33,504 bases of DNA from positions 1 through 33,504 of the forward strand of contig JANQMF010000169.1 in NCBI GenBank assembly GCA_028280225.1, in the 5' to 3' direction. The notes under the pieces were generated by a model, which worked only from the letters and a program-made list of their open reading frames with translations, was not told the origin of the DNA and did no database searches. Source of the stretch: Pseudomonadales bacterium (GTDB lineage: Bacteria; Pseudomonadota; Gammaproteobacteria; Pseudomonadales; Azotimanducaceae). Both the position numbers and the translations under genes were made by a program. How positions within the stretch are numbered: the first letter of the stretch is position 1; each line of letters starts with the position of its first letter. Positions 10,970 through 20,995 of this stretch are shown piece by piece.

Positions 10970-11021
10970 TTGTAAGCACATGATGTTGCAGCAGGTGCGC
11001 CGATCTTGTCCCGCGCGATTT

Positions 11022-11444
11022 CTATGCTGCCGGTTTGAGCTCAAAGGTATGGCTGATCTTGACCCCGGCCCGTTGCAGCATGATCGAAGCCGAACAGTAC
11101 TTCTCCGCGGTCAACCGAATAGCCCGGTCGACCCTGGTTGCGTCGAGATTGTCCCCGGTGATGACAAAGTGAATGGCAATTTCTTCAAATACCTGAGGAA
11201 TCTCGTCAGCACGTTTTGCTGTGATGTGTGTCACACATTGGGTCACTTTCTGACGTGATTTAGCCAAAATATTGACAACATCAAAGGACGTGCAGCCACC
11301 AACACCCATCAGCATCAGCTCCATGGGCCGGCTCCCCTTATTTTCCCCGCCTGAATCCGGGGGGCCGTCGATTTGAACGGTGTGACCGGAGTCCGCAATC
11401 GCCTCAAAGTGAACGTTTTCCAGCCATTTGATTTGTGTATTCAT
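11022..11444 (-). CDS. OsmC/YhfA-family protein
   Basis: The 140-residue protein belongs to the OsmC superfamily of thiol peroxidases and related proteins, and is closest in pattern to YhfA, which in E. coli also lies divergent from crp. The two conserved cysteines are present: C51 in GVGGCTSFDVV and C117 in EKYCSASIM, with the typical SRPMELMLMG before the first. OsmC proteins reduce organic hydroperoxides; YhfA-type members are less characterised, so the substrate is open. It diverges from crp across a 172-bp spacer. A perfect CRP consensus core lies inside this coding sequence. Confidence 0.9.
   Translation of the reverse strand: MNTQIKWLENVHFEAIADSGHTVQIDGPPDSGGENKGSRPMELMLMGVGGCTSFDVVNILAKSRQKVTQCVTHITAKRADEIPQVFEEIAIHFVITGDNLDATRVDRAIRLTAEKYCSASIMLQRAGVKISHTFELKPAA
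11220..11235. promoter_or_regulatory. Perfect CRP/Vfr consensus core (TGTGA-N6-TCACA) inside the osmC-type gene
   Basis: TGTGA at 11220-11224, six bases, TCACA at 11231-11235: an exact match to the CRP core palindrome. It lies within the OsmC coding region, about 380 bp before the crp start. Whether it is bound is not known; the position inside a gene argues for caution. Confidence 0.4.
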
Positions 11445-11616
11445 GGTCTAAACTGTTTGTAGGTTTTTGTAAACACGAGACATTTTCGGCCATTTATTCG
11501 AGAACTGCGACCGTTTAGAGTGTGAAATCACGCCGTTTGTCGACCATGTCTCGAAATAGTTCACATATCTCACCTAATATTCATCACACGCAACGTGTTA
11601 CGAAGGAGCGCAACAA
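11445..11616. promoter_or_regulatory. Divergent control region between osmC-type gene and crp
   Basis: This 172-bp spacer must hold the promoters of both divergent genes. For crp, a -10-like TAATAT lies at 11575-11580 without a good -35, and a clear ribosome binding site GAAGGAG at 11602-11608. CGAGACAT at 11476-11483 is repeated inverted at 11546-11553, and the related TTCGAGA occurs once between them, suggesting a multi-site operator. A CRP half-site (TGTGA) lies at 11521-11525. The ACACG-CAA-CGTGT inverted repeat at about 11586-11598 falls just before the ribosome binding site. Confidence 0.4.
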
Positions 11617-12306
11617 ATGCTTGCAGCAAAAAGCAATCAGATAAATCGGCCACTTACTGCTAAGGGGTTTCAAATGAATTTAAACGCTGAGGCCACGGAT
11701 ACCCACCTTGATGCGTTTCTCGCAGCAGCGCATCGCCGCAAATATCCTGCGAAGAGTACGCTCATCTACGCAGGTGATAAAAGTGATTCCATCTACTACA
11801 TTCTTAAAGGGTCTGTGACGGTCCTGGTAGAGGACGAATCCGGACGAGAAATCATTGTCGATTATTTGAACAAAGGGGATTTCTTCGGCGAAATGCCCCT
11901 GTTTGTTGAAGGCACCCCGAGATCTGCGTGGGTTAAAGCCAAAAATGAATGTGAAGTGGCTGAATTGTCTTACAACAAATTTAAAGAGTTAGCGGAGCGG
12001 CATACGGATTTGCTGTACGCAGTTGGAAAGCAGCTTGCAGACCGGCTGAACCGCACAACGCAGAAGGTAAGCGATCTGGCGTTCCTGGACGTCACGGGTC
12101 GGGTAGCAAGGACGTTGCTGGAACTTACCAAACAACCCGACGCAATGACTCATCCTGACGGCATGCAAATCAAAATCACCCGTCAAGAAATTGGGCGCAT
12201 TGTCGGTTGCTCAAGGGAGATGGTTGGACGTGTACTTAAAACCCTCGTGGACCAGGGACTGGTTTCTGTCAAAGGGAAGACCATGGTGGTTTACGGTACG
12301 CGTTAG
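11617..12306 (+). CDS. crp: cAMP-binding global transcription regulator CRP/Vfr
   Basis: The product matches E. coli CRP and Pseudomonas Vfr along its length. The N-terminal cAMP domain has [20 protein letters not shown] and [10 protein letters not shown], with RSAW carrying the cAMP phosphate-binding Arg-Ser pair. TT in the C-helix matches the Thr-Ser/Thr-Thr pair that contacts adenine. The C-terminal domain has [26 protein letters not shown] and the recognition helix [11 protein letters not shown], ending VVYGTR. Two in-frame starts each have a ribosome binding site: ATG 11617 (GAAGGAG, 229 residues) and ATG 11674 (AAGGGG, 210 residues, equal to E. coli CRP). I annotate the longer; the shorter may be the main or a second form. 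A bidirectional terminator separates it from convergent trpC. Confidence 0.95.
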
Positions 12307-12334
12307 TCAACTGGCACAGGGATGTGTAAATTAT

Positions 12335-12358
12335 AAAAGGGGCCAACGGCCCCTTTTT
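12335..12358. terminator. Bidirectional rho-independent terminator between crp and trpC
   Basis: A-run, GGGGCC, loop AAC, GGCCCC, then TTTTT: a 6-bp GC stem flanked by A and T runs that works in both directions. It serves crp on the plus strand and the trp operon on the minus strand. Confidence 0.9.
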
Positions 12359-12371
12359 ATTGGGCAAAAAA

Positions 12372-13166
12372 TTATTGGGCAAAAAACATTTCCTCAAGAG
12401 CTACCCCCGGGTCCGGCGCGCGCATAAATGCCTCTCCAACCAAAAAGCCGTAAACCTTGTGATCCAGCATGTGCTGAACATCCCGGGCGTCAGCAATACC
12501 GCTTTCGGTAATGACGGTCACGTTCTCGGGAATGTCCGGTAGCAGGTCCAGGGTGGTGGACAGGCTGGTTGCAAAGGTTTTCAGATTGCGATTGTTGATG
12601 CCCACAACGTCCGGACTGAGGCTCAAGGCGGCATCAAGCTCAACAGCATTGTGCACTTCGATCAGCACGTCCATCCCCAACCCCCTGGCGGTTTGATTAA
12701 GCACCGTCAGGCGCATGATATCCAAGGCGGCGACGATCAGCAGAATACAGTCAGCCCCCATGGCTCTGGCCTCATAAACCTGATATTCATCAACAATAAA
12801 GTCTTTGCGGATGACAGGCAGGTCCACGGCAGCCCGGGCTTGGATAAGATATTCCGTGCTGCCTTGAAAGTACTGTTCGTCGGTGAGGACAGACAGGCAA
12901 GTGGCACCATGTCTGGCGTAGCTTCGGGCAATGGCGGCAGGTTCAAACTGTTCCCGGATGACACCCTTGCTGGGTGATGCTCTTTTAATCTCCGCAATAA
13001 TGGCGGGTTTTTGGGCAGCCGCTTGTGCAGCCAGTTTATCGACAAAACCCCGCACAGGCGGGGCCTGGTCTGCCAGGGTGTGCAGTTCTTGAAGTGATGT
13101 CCGGGTTTTTCTGAGGGCAATCTCTTCGTGTTTTGTGGCTACGATTTGGGTCAGGATATCGGTCAT
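12372..13166 (-). CDS. trpC: Indole-3-glycerol phosphate synthase
   Basis: TrpC converts CdRP to indole-3-glycerol phosphate, the fourth step of tryptophan synthesis. The 264-residue TIM barrel has the signature [11 protein letters not shown] with catalytic Glu and Lys, [30 protein letters not shown] with the catalytic lysine, [16 protein letters not shown] and ESGI. It is monofunctional, without the TrpF domain fused in E. coli. Its ATG overlaps the trpD stop by 4 bp (ATGA). It is the last gene of the operon, followed by the bidirectional terminator. Confidence 0.96.
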
Positions 13167-14203
13167 GCTTGGCCCATCATTTTGCTGACCCGGGTCAGTT
13201 CATCCAGGCGTTCCTTAGCCAGGCCGGATGCAATGGCATCCTGCGCCATGACCACACCGTTGGCCATGGAGGTTGCGATACCGGCCACATAGATTGCGGC
13301 TCCGGCGTTGAGGCTGACAATGTCCGCCGCAGCGGAGTCCGGCTCGGTGAGCGCGGTTTTAACCAGCGCCAGGCTATGTTCCGTGGACTCTGCGTTCAGA
13401 TGGGTTAAGTCTGCCGGGTTGCGGGTGGCGATACCCAGATCGTCCGGGGTGATCTGATATTCGCTGATTTTGCCGGCACGCAGCTCAACAACCTGGGTGG
13501 GGGCATCCAGCCGGATTTCATCCAGGCCCTGGCTGTGGACAATCAGGGCATGTTCCGCGTCAAGCAGGTCCAGCACCTGGGCCATACGCTTCTGCCACAC
13601 CGGGCTGAAGACGCCGATTACCTGGCGGCGCGCGCCCGCGGGATTGGTCATGGGCCCCAACACATTCATCATGGTGCGTATGCCGATTTCCTGGCGTACC
13701 GGGCCGGCGAAACGCATGGCGCTGTGGTGAGCCTGGGCAAACATAAAGCCAACCCCAACCTCAAGGATACAGGTGCCAATTTGTTCCGGCGACAGGGCCA
13801 GACTGACTCCGGCGGCTTCCAGGACATCGGCGCTGCCGCAAAAGCTGGTCATTTTGCGGTTGCCGTGTTTGGCGACCTTGGCACCCGCTGCTGCGGCCAC
13901 AAAGGCGGCGGCGGTGGAGATATTGAATAGCTTATGACCACTGCCCCCGGTGCCGCAGGTATCTACCAGATTGGGGTGCTCGATGTTAACCCGGGTGGAC
14001 AAATTCCGCATGGTAATGGCCGCACCGGCCAATTCTTCCGGGGTTTCACCCTTGACCCGCATGGCGGCCAGAAAAGCGCCAATCTGTGCAGGGGTGGCCT
14101 CCCCGGACATAATGATATTGAAAATTCCGGCGGCCTGTGTCTGATTGAGAGATTCACCCTCAACAATTTTTGCCAAAGCGTCTTGTATGTTCATTATCGA
14201 CAT
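13163..14203 (-). CDS. trpD: Anthranilate phosphoribosyltransferase
   Basis: TrpD transfers phosphoribosyl from PRPP to anthranilate. The 346-residue protein has the N-terminal helical region and the alpha/beta core with [62 protein letters not shown] and the metal-binding acidic pair in LDEI. Two usually conserved spots differ from the E. coli pattern: GTGGDG is GTGGSG, and SSKSGS is TSFCGS, losing the Lys seen in many homologues (not invariant; mycobacterial TrpD also lacks it). It lies 23 bp after trpG and overlaps trpC by 4 bp. Confidence 0.95.
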
Positions 14204-14226
14204 CTGTTGTTGTTAACGTTTTGCGG

Positions 14227-14805
14227 TCAGGTTGACTGCAAAAAGTTGTTCAGCAAATCATGGCCCCCCTGGGTCATGATGGATTCCGGGTGGAATTGTA
14301 CACCTTCCACAGCCATATCCCGGTGCCTGAAACCCATGATTTCGTCCACTTCACCATCAATTTCCGTCCAGGCGGTGACTTCCAGACAATCGGGTAAGGT
14401 CTGTTTGTCTACAATCAGGGAATGGTAGCGGGTGGCTTCAAAGGGTTGGGGCAGGTTGGCAAATACGCCCAGGTTGTTGTGGTATATCAGGGAGGTTTTG
14501 CCGTGCATGACATTGTTTGCCCTGATCACGTCGCCGCCAAAGGCTTGACCAATGCTCTGGTGGCCCAGGCAGATACCCAGCAAGGGAACCTTGCCGGCAA
14601 AGGTGGTGACCACTTCCAGGGAAATACCCGCTTCGTTGGGCGTGCAGGGTCCCGGCGAGATGACAATTTTTGCCGGCGCAAGCCGCTTGATTTCGGCAAT
14701 GCTGATTTCGTCGTTGCGATAAACAACTACCTCCGCGCCAAGTTCCATAAGATATTGGACCACGTTGTAGGTAAAGGAGTCGTAGTTATCGATCATTAAG
14801 ATCAT
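14227..14805 (-). CDS. trpG: Anthranilate synthase glutamine amidotransferase component II (possibly shared with PabA)
   Basis: The 192-residue class I glutamine amidotransferase supplies ammonia to TrpE, and often to PabB as well. It shows [10 protein letters not shown] at the start, the oxyanion region [12 protein letters not shown], the catalytic nucleophile in GICLGHQSI, and the His-Glu pair in GVQFHPESI. It overlaps the preceding VOC gene by 4 bp (ATGA). A second in-frame ATG three codons downstream is also possible. The position before trpD and trpC matches the Pseudomonas trpGDC block. Confidence 0.95.
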
Positions 14806-15359
14806 GATGATTGTCCTGTAGTCGATCCGCTTAAACTCATTGTTCTAACCGGCTCTTCACCCTGCCAGTTGTGCGCAGCGGTTTTGATAAAGCGATAGAA
14901 GTCAATCAGCGGGCTACTTCTTTCGTACACTTCAATAAAGTGTCCCAAAGATCGCAGAGCATCGAGGAAAGCGAAGTTAATGCCGGTTTTCGTGACGCAC
15001 CGGGTGGCCACCGGAATCCCGGCCGCGGCATATTCATCACATGCCCTGGGCAGTGAATCCACCATGGTGGCGACATGATGCAAACCCTCTTCGCCGGGGG
15101 TGTACAAATCGCGAAAGGGAGAGGGCCCCGGGCTGTCCTGTTGGACCAGTTCCATCATCACCTCGCCCCACTGCCCGTATGCTGAGGAGTGCACAAAGAG
15201 ACAGGATTCACCCCGGTGTTCAGCCCGGGACAATTCAATGTTTCTGCTGATGTAGAAGGGGCCCGCGCCGAAGGTTTGGGCCATGCGCAAAGCCGCCGCT
15301 TCGATATCGTTGACAAAATAGGCAATCTGGACCACCGGATAGCCGGGCATGGTGTTCAT
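14802..15359 (-). CDS. VOC-superfamily protein embedded in the trp operon
   Basis: The 185-residue protein has the two-module VOC fold. Candidate metal ligands are spaced as in methylmalonyl-CoA epimerase and glyoxalase relatives: Gln in VVQIAYFV, Glu in VMMELVQQ, His in LHHVATMV and Glu in [10 protein letters not shown]-terminal tail of about 35 residues is unassigned. The gene is locked between the channel gene and trpG by 4-bp ATGA overlaps at both ends, so it must be co-translated with tryptophan genes. Its substrate is unknown. Functions to consider are an isomerase or lyase acting on a small organic acid, or simple operon hitch-hiking. Confidence 0.8.
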
Positions 15360-16159
15360 GAGTTATCCAGTTGTTCAAGTTTGCGTTGCACTGCTGCCAA
15401 TGCCTGCTGGGTCTGCTTAAGTTCCCGCAGAATTTCCTCGCGTGTGGGGGCGCTGGTGAGGGTCTCTAAACGTTCTTGTTTAGCTTCGTCCAGATTGTTG
15501 ATGACCACGGCGATAAACAAGTTGACTACAACAAAGGTGCCCAGGACGACAAAACTGACAAAGTACATCCATGCCAGGGGTTCTGCCGCCATGGCGGCAT
15601 ACATGATGTCTGTCCAGTCTTCCAGGGTGACGATGCGAAACAGAGACAACAGAGAAATGCCCAGATTGCGCCAATGGGTTGGGTCGATCTCGTGAAAGAG
15701 GTGGTAGCCGGCGACGGCGTAGACATAAAAGATAATCGACATCAGGGCCAGAACGTGGCCCATGCTTGGAATAGACCGCACCAGGGTGGCAACAATCAGC
15801 CGCAGCTCCGGCAGGGTGGATATCAGGCGCAGCACGCGCAGCAGCCTCGCCGGGCGTGCCCGGGTTGCCAGTTGTCCGGTGGCGGGCAGCAGACTCAAAA
15901 CGATGATGCTGAAGTCAAAAACGTTCCAGCCGTCCTTAAAATAGTCCTGAACCCGCGGTGCGTGAGCCATCATTTTGATGGCCGCTTCGATGACAAAGAT
16001 CCCCAGAAAGATCTGATTGGCCAGGTTAAACCAGCGGCCGTAGTCCGCGGTCAGGTCCGCTGAGGTATCCAGGCCAATGACAATGGCATTTAAAACAATG
16101 GCCACGGTGATGCCGTGGTTAAAGCCATTGCTCGCGCAGATTCGTTGAGCCCAGGACAC
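15356..16159 (-). CDS. Single-repeat voltage-gated cation channel (NaChBac/CavAb-like ion transporter)
   Basis: The 267-residue protein has six transmembrane segments. S1 is near residues 15-32, S2 46-64, S3 78-92. S4 (about 98-112) has arginines every third residue (R102, R105, R108, R111). S5 (about 133-155) is followed by a pore loop and S6 (about 196-222). The selectivity filter T178-L-E-D-W-T-D184 has acidic residues at three positions, like engineered CavAb (TLDDWSD) and unlike sodium-selective NaChBac (TLESWAS). Calcium or mixed cation permeation is therefore inferred. The C-terminal tail (about 239-265) is a probable coiled coil that would tetramerise the channel. The start is GTG, 3 nt after the trpE stop, and the stop overlaps the VOC gene start. 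The family is clear; ion choice and the reason for a trp operon location are not. Confidence 0.9.
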   Translation of the reverse strand: MSWAQRICASNGFNHGITVAIVLNAIVIGLDTSADLTADYGRWFNLANQIFLGIFVIEAAIKMMAHAPRVQDYFKDGWNVFDFSIIVLSLLPATGQLATRARPARLLRVLRLISTLPELRLIVATLVRSIPSMGHVLALMSIIFYVYAVAGYHLFHEIDPTHWRNLGISLLSLFRIVTLEDWTDIMYAAMAAEPLAWMYFVSFVVLGTFVVVNLFIAVVINNLDEAKQERLETLTSAPTREEILRELKQTQQALAAVQRKLEQLDNS

Positions 16160-16162
16160 CGC

Positions 16163-17632
16163 TTAGTCTGCTAGGTCGCGAAATTGATTTTCAGCCATGG
16201 CCGCGGCGCGAAAAATGGCGCGGCCCTTATTGAGGCTTTCTTTCCATTCCAGGCGCGGGACCGAATCGGCGACAATGCCACCGCCGGCTTCGATGTATAA
16301 CTTGCCGTCTTTGACAACCGCGGTACGAATGGCAATGGCGGTATCCATGTTGCCGTTCCAGGCCAGATAACCCACTGCGCCGCCATAAATACCGCGTTTC
16401 ACCGGCTCCAGTTCATCAATAATTTCCATGGCACGGACTTTAGGTGCACCGGACAGAGTTCCCACGGGCAGGGTGGCCCGCAACAGGTCCATGGCGGACA
16501 TGTTAGGGCGCAATTTACCCTCAACGTTTGAACAGATATGCATGACATGGGAATAACGTTCGATAATAAATTGCTCGGTCACCTTCACGCTGCCGGCTTG
16601 CGCCACCCGGCCGACGTCGTTTCTGCCCAGGTCGATCAGCATCAGATGTTCGGCAATTTCCTTAGGGTCTGCCAGCAGTTCCGCTTCGAAGGCTTGATCC
16701 TCTTCGTCGGTGTGCCCGCGCCGGCGGGTACCCGCCAACGGCCGGTTGGTAATCTTGCCATTGTCCAGGCGGGCAAGGATTTCCGGAGATGAACTGACAA
16801 TTTCAAAACCGTTCAGATTCATGAAGTACATATAGGGGGAAGGGTTGAGGCTGCGTAGCGCCCGATAAAGATTAATCGACGGTGAGGTGAAGGGGATGGA
16901 CATACGCTGGGCCAATACCACCTGCATAACGTCACCGGCCCGGGTGTACTCGCGAATCCGTTCCACAGCGTCCTTAAAACTCTTTTCACCAAATTCCGAG
17001 ACGAAATCAGATTCCTCAATTTGTTGGTTGGCATGGCTTGGGTGTAACGGGGGTACCGCATGTTCCAGGACCTGGATATGTTGCCGCAAGCGTTCCCGGG
17101 TGTCCTCTACAATGCCGGGGATATCCGGATCAACCAGGCTGATGAGTTGCATGCGCCCTTTGACGTTATCAAAAACCACCACATCCTCGCTGACCATCAG
17201 CAGGATATCAGGAGTTTTCAGCGGATCCGGCGGGGTGCTCTCCCGCAGGCGCTTTTCCACATAGCGCACGGTGTCGTAGCCAAAATATCCAACCAGGCCG
17301 CCGTAAAACCGGGGCAGATCGTCTGCGTCTTCTACATCAAAACGGTTCTGGAAGGATTCGATAAAGTCCAGGGGGTCTTCGGTTTCAATCTGTTCGGTGA
17401 TTTCGCCATTGTGAGAAACAGTGACCTGGTCACCGCGAACGGTAATAACCGTTCGCGCCGGCAAACCGATAATTGAATACCGGCCCCATTTCTCTCCGCC
17501 TTGGGAAGATTCGAGCAGGTAGGTATAGGGGGCGTTGGCCAGCTTCAGATAAACGGACAGCGGGGTATCCAGGTCAGCCAGGGTTTCGACCACAACGGGA
17601 ATGCGGCGGTAGATCGGAGGTTTTTCGTTCAT
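16163..17632 (-). CDS. trpE: Anthranilate synthase component I
   Basis: TrpE makes anthranilate from chorismate and ammonia or glutamine with TrpG. The 489-residue protein has an N-terminal regulatory domain with the LLES tryptophan-binding motif ([21 protein letters not shown] region) and NPSPYMYF, which supports feedback inhibition by tryptophan. The chorismate-binding core has [57 protein letters not shown] and AGGGIVADS. It is the first gene of the operon; gph ends 197 bp upstream. The start ATG has no clear ribosome binding site and lies in a directly repeated GTAACCAT. An abutting pair of inverted repeats lies in codons about 59-71. Confidence 0.96.
17421..17457. repeat. Two abutting perfect inverted repeats inside the 5' part of trpE
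   Basis: GTGACC-T-GGTCAC at 17421-17433 is followed at once by CGCGAACGGT-AATA-ACCGTTCGCG at 17434-17457, which is 10 perfect pairs with a 4-nt loop. In trpE mRNA this would be a very stable hairpin within codons about 59-71. No T-run follows, so it is not a standard terminator. Confidence 0.6.
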
Positions 17633-17829
17633 GGTTACATCGTAAAAACTTATGGTTACTTTTTTGCTTATTTCACAGGATGACGCCCCGTGATCTGGCG
17701 AAGGCCAATGAATTGACTATCGCCAACACCCGCTGGTCGGTGAGATGTTGCAAAGTTTAACCCAAGTTTTCAAAACGCAACGCATAATCGCTTACTCATT
17801 GAATGGGCGAAGGTTAGCATGTCGGTTGC
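17633..17829 (-). promoter_or_regulatory. trpE leader region (possible promoter, hairpins and a small Trp-containing ORF)
   Basis: This is the untranslated stretch between gph and trpE. Read on the minus strand, it holds a 22-codon ORF (17785-17717, ATG to TAG) with Trp at codons 8 and 21. TGGCGA/TCGCCA inverted repeats (17696-17725) overlap its end, and a second hairpin, TCACGGG/CCTGTGA (17673-17693), lies downstream. The layout recalls a trp attenuator. However, the Trp codons are not adjacent, the ORF has a weak ribosome binding site, and no U-run follows either hairpin, so classical attenuation is not shown. No strong promoter was identified. Confidence 0.35.
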
Positions 17830-18537
17830 CTAATGTGGAGCATCCAGCAGGCGGTTAAAGTCTTCAATAACTCCGTTAGCCCCCAGGGTGTTCACGTCGA
17901 TGCCGTGGTTATAGCCGTAGGGCACACAGACCACTTTCAGCAGACTGTTGTGCGCTGCCTTTACGTCGGTTTCGGAATCGCCGACAAATAACACTTGTTG
18001 GGGGCCAAGACCCAGGGTATCCAGGGCCAGGCTGATGGGTGCGGGGTGGGGCTTGGGATGTGCACAGGTATCACCACCAACCAATACGCTAAAAAAGTGT
18101 GCAAGCTCGAGGGTCTGCAAAAGGCGGCGGCTGAGTTCAGCAGGTTTATTGGTTACCACTCCCAATTGCTTGCCTGCCCCGTGCAGGTGCTCCAGGGTAT
18201 CTACCACGGTGGGGTAGGGCTGGCTGCTGTGTGCAATATGGGCGCCGTAGTATTGTAGAAATTCGGTAAATAGATGTTCGACGTCCACATCATCCAGTGC
18301 AGCAGGATCTTGTTTGTTGTGATACAGGAGGGCTTGTTTGATCATGACCCGGGCACCGTGGCCAACCCAATGCCGGGTCAAAGCTTCGCTGACCGGAGGC
18401 AGATTGATCAGCTCCAGAGTGAAGTTAAGGGCCCGGTTTAAGTCCGGTGCCGTATCCACCAGGGTGCCATCCAGATCAAATAGGTACCCTTGGTAGATCT
18501 GGTGCCAATCAGGCGGTGATTTGGCGTCAGCCGGCAC
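17830..18537 (-). CDS. gph: Phosphoglycolate phosphatase (HAD superfamily)
   Basis: Gph removes phosphate from 2-phosphoglycolate, formed during DNA repair and by Rubisco side reactions. The 235-residue HAD protein has motif [15 protein letters not shown] (D21, D23), a cap domain, motif II/III in [10 protein letters not shown], and motif [13 protein letters not shown]. It overlaps rpe by 11 bp, a pairing known from many proteobacteria (rpe-gph-trpE). Substrate specificity is inferred from context and similarity. Confidence 0.9.
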
Positions 18538-19189
18538 GGGTTATGGCGGCGCGCATTTCAGCAATGGTGGTCCGATAATCACTGGTACCGAATATCGCGG
18601 ACCCCGCCACAAAAGTGTCTGCACCGGCGGCCGCGACGGCGCCTATGTTGTCGGTTTTGATACCCCCATCCACTTGCAGGCGAATAGCCTGATCACCAAT
18701 CATTTGCCTGGCGCGTTCTACCTTGGCAAGGCTGGATTCGATAAATTGCTGGCCGCCAAATCCCGGATTTACCGACATGATCAACACTAAATCAATCATG
18801 TGCAGGCATTCGGGCAGGACCGTCAAGGGCGTCGCGGGGTTAAATACCAGACCGGCCTTGGCCCCGCCGGCGCGAATCATGGACAAGGTGCGATGCAGGT
18901 GCTCCGTGCTTTCCGGATGGACGGTAATGTAATTGGCTCCGGCCTCAAGAAAGGCCTCAACCAGTGTATCGACGGGTTTGACCATCAGGTGCACATCGAC
19001 AATGGCGCTGATACCAGCACCGCGAAGGGACTTTAATACCATGGGTCCCACGCTGAGGTTGGGGACATAGTGATTGTCCATGACATCAAAATGTATGGTG
19101 TCCGCACCGGCTGACAGCACATCATTAACTTCTTCACCTAAACGGGAAAAATCAGCGGCAAGGATCGAGGGTGATATCCAGGGTGTCAT
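18527..19189 (-). CDS. rpe: Ribulose-phosphate 3-epimerase
   Basis: Rpe interconverts ribulose-5-phosphate and xylulose-5-phosphate in the pentose phosphate pathway. The 220-residue TIM barrel shows [16 protein letters not shown], the metal-binding [23 protein letters not shown], the [14 protein letters not shown] signature and [11 protein letters not shown]. Its 3' end overlaps gph, so both are translated together. About 104 bp separate it from djlA; I see no strong terminator there and only a weak TTGTCA -35-like element. Confidence 0.95.
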
Positions 19190-19293
19190 AAGGTGCGCTA
19201 GTTTACCTGCTGCCTCAATCTTTGCTAGCGGTCTGCTGAAAAACTATGACAAATTGTTTTACCCCACGTCACGGCGGCCAAAGGGGCAGGAAT

Positions 19294-20304
19294 TTAGTTT
19301 TGACCCCGATAGACTTGGATGGTCTCCAGCGCGTCACGCATCTCCACCATGCGCTGCTGGGCCAGCCGCAGGGCCTCAGCATTAGCCTGGGTGTCGCCTC
19401 GTCCGGCAAGGCGGTCGGGATGATAACGGCTGACCATGCGGCGATAGGCCAGCTTGACCTTGTGCATCGGCGCATCGGGGGCTATATCCAGGCACCGGAA
19501 GGCAGCCTGCACCTGCGGCGGCATGTCCTTAGTCTGGGGCCCGGGGGGTGGCTTTGGCGGGGTTGTTGATTGACGGTGAGATTGGGCTTTTTGGGGCTGT
19601 GCGGCAGCTTGCTGAGCTTCACCAAATTCGTTGGCAATTTCTGCCGGGGTGAATTTGAGTTGGCCACCAATTGTCTTCAGGGTGGACAAGGTGGCGTTGG
19701 TTGGGGATACGGCGGCCTGTTGGGCCAACAGGTGGAGCAGCTCGTGGCGCGTCCTTTCATCCAGATGCCGGTGACAGCGTTGAGCCAGGCGTTGCAGGTT
19801 GATACGGCCATCCTTGCCTGCGGAAAACCAGGTAATGGCCTGTTGGCGCAGAGCTTGAGGATTCAAGGCCGGGTCGTTTCCCTGTGCCTGTTGGATCAGA
19901 TGTTCAGCAAACCGTATGTGTCCAGGGTGTACAACACCGCCGGACTTTGCCAGGTAACCCAGGGTGGTGAACAGAAATTCCCGCACTTCAGCCTGCTGCC
20001 AGGCTTGGGCATTGTATGGGGTCCCCGCCTTGTGCCGGGATCTTTGGTGGGTCTGTTTTTCCCGGGCGGCATAAGCCATCCATAGATCATAACCGTGGCC
20101 CAGGGTGATTCCGATGATGATCCCGATGGACAATCGTGTTGGATCAAATGAAGCGCCGGAAAAAGCGGTCACACAGGCTATGGTCAATCCCAGAGCTTTG
20201 CCGAACCAGGTGGCTTTGAGCAGATGTTGACGCATATCCGTTAAGTCTAGGCGAGGGGTGGGGATATGTTGGGACCAGGTTCTAAATTTTTGGCTGCCGG
20301 TCAT
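19294..20304 (-). CDS. djlA: DjlA-type membrane-anchored DnaJ co-chaperone (TerB and J domains)
   Basis: The protein has one transmembrane segment near the N-terminus (about residues 30-55, including SIGIIIGITLGHGYDLWMAY). A TerB-like helical domain follows (about 95-230), then a Gln/Pro-rich linker (about 230-265), then a C-terminal J domain with the essential HPD in YRRMVSRYHPDRLAG. This order matches DjlA, which stimulates DnaK at the inner membrane. The start at 20304 overlaps the murU gene by 23 bp; a later ATG at 20235 would put the membrane segment closer to the N-terminus, as in E. coli. The position next to murU/amgK and lptD suggests an envelope role. Confidence 0.85.
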   Translation of the reverse strand: MTGSQKFRTWSQHIPTPRLDLTDMRQHLLKATWFGKALGLTIACVTAFSGASFDPTRLSIGIIIGITLGHGYDLWMAYAAREKQTHQRSRHKAGTPYNAQAWQQAEVREFLFTTLGYLAKSGGVVHPGHIRFAEHLIQQAQGNDPALNPQALRQQAITWFSAGKDGRINLQRLAQRCHRHLDERTRHELLHLLAQQAAVSPTNATLSTLKTIGGQLKFTPAEIANEFGEAQQAAAQPQKAQSHRQSTTPPKPPPGPQTKDMPPQVQAAFRCLDIAPDAPMHKVKLAYRRMVSRYHPDRLAGRGDTQANAEALRLAQQRMVEMRDALETIQVYRGQN

Positions 20305-20995
20305 CCGCCAACGTTGCAGCAGTGGTCTGGGCGGCGCGATATTGCTCGATACTGCCGATATCCTGCCAGATGCCGTTGAAAATTTGGGCCCCCAACTGCT
20401 GCTGGTGGATCAGGGCAAACATGATCTCCCTGAAGGAAAAAGCCGTGCCACCGGCGTAAGCCTGGAAAAGCTCCGGTAACAGTACGGCAATACCGCAGTA
20501 GACGTAGGGTTCACCCCGGCTGGTTACGGTGCCTTGGGTGTATGCAAAATCTCCGGAAGCCCGGTGGTCGGGTGTAGGTGTCAGCACGATATGTGCGCGG
20601 TGGGGGGGGTGTGGCGCCGGGGGGAGGGTGGAAAAGTCGAAATTCGTAAAAATATCGCCATTCAACAGACAGAAGGGCTGGTTGTTGAAAAAGGGTAATG
20701 CCCGGGCAATGCCCCCGCCGGTTTCCAGCAGGGTGGATTCTTTACTGTACTCGATACTGACACCAAAATTACTGCCGTTCCCCAGATAGGTTTCGATCTG
20801 ATCCCCCAGGTGGTGCAGATTGATAATAATGCGCTGGATACCCGCTCTGGCCAATGCCTGCACCTGATGACCAATTAGTGGTGTGCCGGCCAGCTCCAGC
20901 ATCGGTTTGGGTACGGTGTCGGTCAAGGGTGCAAGGCGGGTGCCGCGACCGGCAGCCAGGATCATGGCTTGTCGTGGGGCGTGGTTCCGGGTCAA
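20282..20995 (-). CDS. murU: N-acetylmuramate-1-phosphate uridylyltransferase (MurU-like)
   Basis: MurU makes UDP-MurNAc from MurNAc-1-phosphate in the Pseudomonas cell-wall recycling route that bypasses early murein synthesis, the basis of intrinsic fosfomycin tolerance. The protein shows the nucleotidyltransferase signature AMILAAGRGTRLAPLTDTVPKPM, ETGGGI for sugar binding, and LLNGDIFTNFDF with the metal-binding Asp. I chose a TTG start at 20995 that overlaps the amgK stop (TTGA), because the upstream ATG at 21034 adds 13 non-conserved residues. It directly follows amgK, its partner kinase. Specificity is inferred from that pairing. Confidence 0.85.
   Translation of the reverse strand: MTRNHAPRQAMILAAGRGTRLAPLTDTVPKPMLELAGTPLIGHQVQALARAGIQRIIINLHHLGDQIETYLGNGSNFGVSIEYSKESTLLETGGGIARALPFFNNQPFCLLNGDIFTNFDFSTLPPAPHPPHRAHIVLTPTPDHRASGDFAYTQGTVTSRGEPYVYCGIAVLLPELFQAYAGGTAFSFREIMFALIHQQQLGAQIFNGIWQDIGSIEQYRAAQTTAATLADDRQPKI

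Follow-up and report, generated by a model that had tools for sequence, protein, structure and literature searches.

The window analysed here, 33,504 nucleotides from a draft genome of 4.4 Mb, carries a tryptophan locus on its minus strand. Open reading frames and Pfam matches give the order rpe, gph, trpE, channel, VOC, trpG, trpD and trpC, all on this strand, and crp lies beyond trpC on the plus strand. The upstream neighbours are rpe for ribulose-phosphate 3-epimerase (18527-19189, Pfam) and gph for phosphoglycolate phosphatase (17830-18537, Pfam, TIGR01449 above its cut-off). The trpE gene for anthranilate synthase component I (16163-17632; Pfam Chorismate_bind and Anth_synt_I_N) reaches 568 bits with the NCBIfam equivalog TIGR00564 (trpE_most), for which the cut-off is 517.7. 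It is followed by a gene for a single-domain voltage-gated cation channel (15356-16159; PF00520, Ion_trans, E = 4e-51) and one for a VOC-fold protein (14802-15359; Glyoxalase_4, PF13669, E = 7e-12), and the span 14802-16159 consists of exactly these two genes. Next come trpG for a glutamine amidotransferase (14227-14805; Pfam GATase, TIGR00566 above cut-off), trpD for anthranilate phosphoribosyltransferase (13163-14203; Pfam Glycos_transf_3) and trpC for indole-3-glycerol phosphate synthase (12372-13166; Pfam IGPS).

The junctions within this row of genes are tight. The stop codon TAA of trpE is followed by GCG and then by the GTG start codon of the channel gene at 16159, which leaves a spacer of 3 nt. 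The TGA stop of the channel gene overlaps the ATG of the VOC gene as ATGA at 15356-15359, and the VOC stop overlaps the ATG of trpG as ATGA at 14802-14805. Between trpG and trpD there are 23 nt, and trpD and trpC overlap. The open reading frames and the sequence thus bear out the original prediction of trpE, channel, VOC and trpG genes on one strand, 3 nt apart at the first junction and overlapping as ATGA at the other two, followed by trpD and trpC. The GTG start codon is in frame with trpE and one codon past its TAA, and a read-through fusion of the two proteins was considered; however, there is no sign of read-through. A consensus scan of this strand from the start of trpE to the end of trpC gave one promoter-like match, within the channel gene, and three matches were found in the whole region versus 4.9 in its shuffles.

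The channel protein comprises 267 residues with a single Ion_trans domain over residues 13-229 (Pfam). Arg102, Arg105 and Arg108 of S4 are invariant in 19 aligned orthologs, which points to a charged voltage sensor. The filter residues T178, E180, D181, W182, T183 and D184 are invariant in 19 aligned rows as well; the filter of the window channel, TLEDWTD, is of the acidic type and not TLESWSM. At positions 15851-15862 of the window (channel residues 100-103), before and in S4, Arg is found at residue 100 and Pro at residue 103; the corresponding residues of the remaining 18 aligned rows are Leu or Ile and Leu or Val, respectively. Sequence matches in the PDB (best 60 of 175 and of 142) are voltage-gated Ca2+ and Na+ channels, both animal and bacterial. 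The AlphaFold model of the channel is weak (pLDDT 72.9, pTM 0.44). We know of no electrophysiology for this ortholog group. By domain size, filter and S4, the channel appears to be AnclNav-like. The AnclNav channels NavPp of Plesiocystis pacifica and CavMr of Meiothermus ruber are likewise single-domain, six-helix and voltage-gated, and NavPp has the identical filter TLEDWTD, conducts Na+ and shows a low-affinity Ca2+ block (PMC7041947). Since the filters are identical, Na+ permeation of the window channel, partly blocked by Ca2+ as in NavPp, is likely. For the gammaproteobacterial AnclNavs of H. elongata and T. turnerae, current was undetectable in Sf9 cells (PMC7041947). The main text of that paper never mentions trpE or an operon and so gives no trp-operon location for any of these channels.

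Irregular channel genes were also seen. In L050 the channel reading frame runs on into an ORF of 1455 aa downstream of trpE, possibly a fusion or an assembly error. A truncated channel with the first 56 residues lies directly behind trpE in genome G055 (L169, 8837-8670, minus strand) and is followed by unrelated sequence, and a Tepidiformaceae genome carries a tandem pair of channel genes (L090, 7001-8754).

For the VOC protein, the structure model is confident (pLDDT 94). Its best solved match is 3gm5, a putative methylmalonyl-CoA epimerase with 26% identity, and residues Q11, H94, H95 and E143, candidate metal ligands, are invariant in 28 rows. The epimerase-like fold and the tight ATGA junctions in the window would suit a functional unit of channel and VOC protein acting on an aromatic intermediate or its transport, as had been proposed for this operon. 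However, within the operon the VOC gene was seen in only one genus, in six of its nine linked genomes, and the other linked loci gave no match. Moreover, of six VOC relatives elsewhere, the neighbours of which were scanned, three lie next to short-chain dehydrogenases and none next to tryptophan genes, the other neighbours being enoyl-CoA hydratase, MFS, MlrC, photolyase-like or unknown genes. A joint function of the two proteins is consequently very improbable. The VOC gene is a recent passenger, inserted at the level of one genus, and does not belong to the conserved unit.

The channel, on the other hand, is found behind trpE well outside this genus. Linked channels were defined as those that share the strand of trpE and start no more than 400 nt downstream of it; the window's own genome is counted throughout. 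The genome samples overlap, so that the following linkage counts are not additive: among the relatives, 96 of 146 genomes have a channel match at E <= 0.001 and 20 have one at E <= 1e-60, 18 of these being linked; in the order sample, the channel is present at E <= 1e-60 in 21 of 390 genomes and linked in 18 of the 21, in five families (f1, f12, f15, f16 and f41); in the class sample, the channel is present in 19 of 369 genomes and linked in five of the 19, which adds the families f138, f191 and f202; and in the phylum sample, 28 of 349 genomes carry the channel, with linkage in two, the window's own and G105. Overall, linkage behind trpE occurs in these eight families. A named scan restricted to the best 80 of 577 confirmed stretches gave 26 linked loci, all among the 41 labelled Gammaproteobacteria (26/41 versus 0/39 others). 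These 39 other loci among the best 80 belong to Nitrospirota (11), Mariprofundia (9), Acidobacteriota (8), Chloroflexota (8), Nitrospinota (1), Betaproteobacteria (1) and unclassified Pseudomonadota (1); one of them, L073 from Nitrospira, has only 104 nt upstream, too little to judge, and was counted as unlinked. A further linked record comes from Candidatus Azophilus lithoversatilis (L035, Candidatus Azotimanducaceae). In G003, from the window's genus, the channel sequence is the same as in Gammaproteobacteria bacterium UBA4421. The channel-trpE arrangement is therefore not a peculiarity of this genome, which would have spoken against a functional unit. Of the order trpE-channel-VOC-trpG, for which a search in relatives had been suggested, the trpE-channel part recurs in several families, whereas the part containing the VOC gene is confined to the six genomes of one genus.

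Many channels lie elsewhere. Linkage is missing from 14 of the 19 genomes with a channel in the class sample, which come from 7 of 11 families. The 26 f242 genomes of the phylum sample all lack it too, with upstream sequence of only about 380 nt at one of their 27 loci, as do four genomes of the window's own family (G051, G075, G705 and G775). Since so many channel-bearing genomes are unlinked, the channel evidently works without the trp genes. The neighbours of 69 unlinked channels were clustered, and in the 30 largest clusters no partner gene was common to phyla at one place except in Nitrospirota and Nitrospinota.

Where the channel is linked, it often overlaps the next gene. The channel stop and the trpG start share an ATGA in 23 of 59 linked rows, in which the same genomes partly appear twice, from Microbulbifer, f1, f15 and unplaced records; seven more linked rows show a channel-trpG overlap of 1-20 nt. 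Forty trpE regions were taken from genomes that lack an ortholog next to this gene; in 25 of them trpG follows trpE directly, with a spacer of about 15-133 nt as measured from alignment ends. Thus, the channel is dispensable. The difference between the ATGA overlaps and this spacer could be taken to mean that the main role of the channel frame is one in cis, namely to bridge translation and thereby set the TrpE:TrpG ratio. Such a role is hardly credible, because filter and S4 are conserved, because dN/dS of the channel lies at 0.03-0.18 in 11 of 12 genome pairs (one pair was not computable, and several are near silent-site saturation) and because channels far from the trp genes are still 52-72% identical to the window channel. 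These dN/dS values fall within the range of trpE, trpG and trpD; purifying selection acts on the channel as it does on the trp enzymes.

The gap between trpE and trpG is a site that accepts foreign genes, as the original prediction had rightly assumed. Pyocins are located there in P. aeruginosa (PMC13075995). In the loci studied here, genes for amidohydrolase, acyl-CoA dehydrogenase, matrixin, methyltransferase and MMPL proteins lie downstream of the channel, and HDOD genes occupy the gap in channel-less relatives. In L220, a relative that lacks the channel, the amidohydrolase cargo is situated directly behind trpE, which looks like a clean loss of the channel. A survey of the Sargasso Sea also describes trp operons with non-trp genes in them (PMC2395257); its main text mentions neither a channel nor ion transport. 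Hence, the channel may have landed in a permissive gap and may stay there by operon inertia; its position would then merely provide steady low expression, and tryptophan control would be incidental and without physiological meaning. The varied cargo, the pyocins and the direct joining of trpE and trpG in 25 of the 40 regions are in favour of this explanation, which we regard as possible although rather unlikely. It accounts less readily for the one-sidedness of the linkage. The channel stays with trpE in all 12 distinct linked loci in which trpG either lies over 300 nt past the channel or VOC gene or is not seen downstream. A same-strand channel beside trpG without trpE was not observed among the loci examined. 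A landing bias could produce the same one-sidedness, and the 12 loci are not 12 separate events, because four of them carry the same amidohydrolase cargo. In G438 from the class sample (L131/L149), the channel is divergent from trpGDC, and the fetched 16 kb contain no trpE match. Unlike at the pyocin site of Pseudomonas, where the same gap between trpE and trpGDC takes foreign genes (PMC13075995), here a single gene, the channel, immediately follows trpE in several families, shares its strand and often has overlapping junctions. A known landing site can thus retain one gene throughout several families even though the genes next to it vary.

The history of the linkage was followed on trees of the channel and of TrpE. 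For a careful channel tree of 82 rows, 45 of 119 usable rows were dropped, namely distant channels, the divergent f97, f188 and betaproteobacterial rows and near duplicates, and 8 rows were added. A 38-row clade (100/99) holds all linked rows used from f1, f15, f41 and Microbulbifer. The remaining eight linked rows form four lineages elsewhere on this tree, which has 9 changes of linkage state; an alternative tree of 114 rows has 10. The TrpE tree follows taxonomy and shows 15 changes. From these numbers it might be concluded that the linkage arose several times independently and that channel and trpE are functionally tied. We consider this improbable, since change counts cannot separate gain from loss and since a single clade of all linked rows, including the unlinked rows nested among them, is not rejected (AU p = 0.209), so that losses and transfers also explain the pattern. 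The trees fit either an old linkage with many losses or several gains. By the same token, a single origin, which the test does not reject, would mean that the conservation reflects one event followed by inheritance, as would be expected of a gene that simply remained in the gap. Four unlinked acidobacterial channels (L034, L044, L049 and L062) are nested in the mostly trp-linked 38-row clade, which suggests a transfer out of the operon. The two f242 genomes placed on the channel tree match Mariprofundia rows. On the TrpE tree, the channel-bearing L160 and nine rows without a channel, all from the window's genus, form a group, so that loss is the simplest reading.

Upstream of trpE, the interval between gph and trpE (17633-17829, minus strand) probably contains the trpE promoter and a leader region, as indicated by the sequence, the alignment with relatives from the genus and the fold. 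An extended -10-like element, TGCTAACCT, is present at 17819-17811. It is followed by a putative leader ORF of 22 codons, MRCVLKTWVKLCNISPTSGCWR* (17717-17785, minus strand), identified by the test for ORFs ending in Trp-Arg (WR) and by the genus alignment. Of 15 upstream regions in the genus, 9 contain the nine-base end of this ORF, TGGCGNTAG. The present analysis adds to the locus this short ORF ending in Trp-Arg upstream of trpE. With a criterion of 8-60 codons and WR within the last six residues, such an ORF precedes trpE in 53 of 82 distinct upstream regions, the window included, compared with a mean of 2.0 (sd 1.6, maximum 10) in 200 shuffles. The same criterion gave 5 of 74 regions upstream of trpD, 5 of 62 upstream of trpC and 0 of 34 upstream of rpe. 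Because the criterion was fixed after the first alignments had been viewed, the excess is somewhat optimistic. In a stricter test for two Trp in the last eight residues, 30 of the 82 regions were positive versus 1.1 by shuffling; the window fails here, since its leader has one terminal Trp, while that of its closest relative has two.

The region 17840-17620 folds stably (z = -4.2), and none of 200 shuffles was equally stable. Rfam gave no match over 11000-20500 at E <= 1, hence no known Trp leader family. No terminator-like site was found in the leader region of the window, and RNAalifold revealed no conserved attenuator helix in 8 aligned leaders. In L036, a T run can be seen behind a GC hairpin. 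Leader control of the trpE unit, in one form or another, is likely, because the WR motif exceeds chance and the fold is stable. As in classical trp attenuators, a short ORF with terminal Trp codons lies before the first trp gene, but the motif here is WR or WRW, with no Rfam match and no conserved terminator detected. TrpR has no match in the window's genome. Where trpG is separated from trpE, a Trp-Trp leader precedes trpG in 5 of 15 loci (0.04 by shuffling) as opposed to 0 of 49 contiguous ones. The separate trpG leader ORF ends in or near Trp-Trp-Ala in L036, L152, L153, L162 and L215. Judging from the title of a study by Olekhnovich and Gussin from 2001, trpE and trpGDC of P. putida are reportedly subject to attenuation. 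The WR leader also precedes trpE genes without a channel and was therefore not made for the channel. Nevertheless, a Trp leader upstream of trpE is a concrete reason to expect that the channel follows tryptophan status.

Taken together, the locus is better read as a channel gene which several families of one class have retained behind trpE, with a Trp leader upstream of both, than as a unit of channel and VOC protein. We think it fairly probable that the channel gene is an old cistron of the gammaproteobacterial trpE transcription unit and is under tryptophan-leader control. A single promoter before trpE would drive the leader peptide, trpE, the channel and, where nothing is inserted, trpGDC on one mRNA. 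In many lineages the stop codon of the channel gene and the start codon of the following one overlap, so that translation of the two is probably coupled there. As the leader ends in Trp-Arg, charged tRNA-Trp should determine how far transcription proceeds: ample tryptophan would result in little trpE and little channel, and shortage in more of both. Four copies of the encoded protein presumably form an AnclNav-like voltage-gated cation channel, a homotetramer. In the window's genus, the VOC gene would have been inserted later between channel and trpG and would ride on the trpE unit. A further step is more tentative and, in our view, somewhat doubtful: the amount of channel may be set by tryptophan supply via the trp leader, and starved cells may put more channel in the membrane, which would alter their Na+ or Ca2+ response to depolarisation; a benefit may come from tying the channel level to tryptophan.

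Links to other functions were also considered. Flagellin (PF00669) occurs in 95 of the 146 relatives, in 12 of 20 channel-bearing genomes versus 83 of 126 others, so that there is no association with motility. For a Na+ pump, nqrB is above cut-off in 118 of the 146 relatives and too common to discriminate.

A channel in a trp operon was not described in any of the titles and abstract openings listed from the open-licence PMC literature. To our knowledge, the role of prokaryotic voltage-gated sodium channels for their owners is largely open. That its position in a biosynthetic operon is conserved, downstream of a leader expected to respond to tryptophan, names a condition under which the role of this channel can be sought, and this in the culturable Microbulbifer. 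If the proposed control by tryptophan supply is true, the channel would give amino-acid starvation an electrical arm, retained in place across gammaproteobacterial families.
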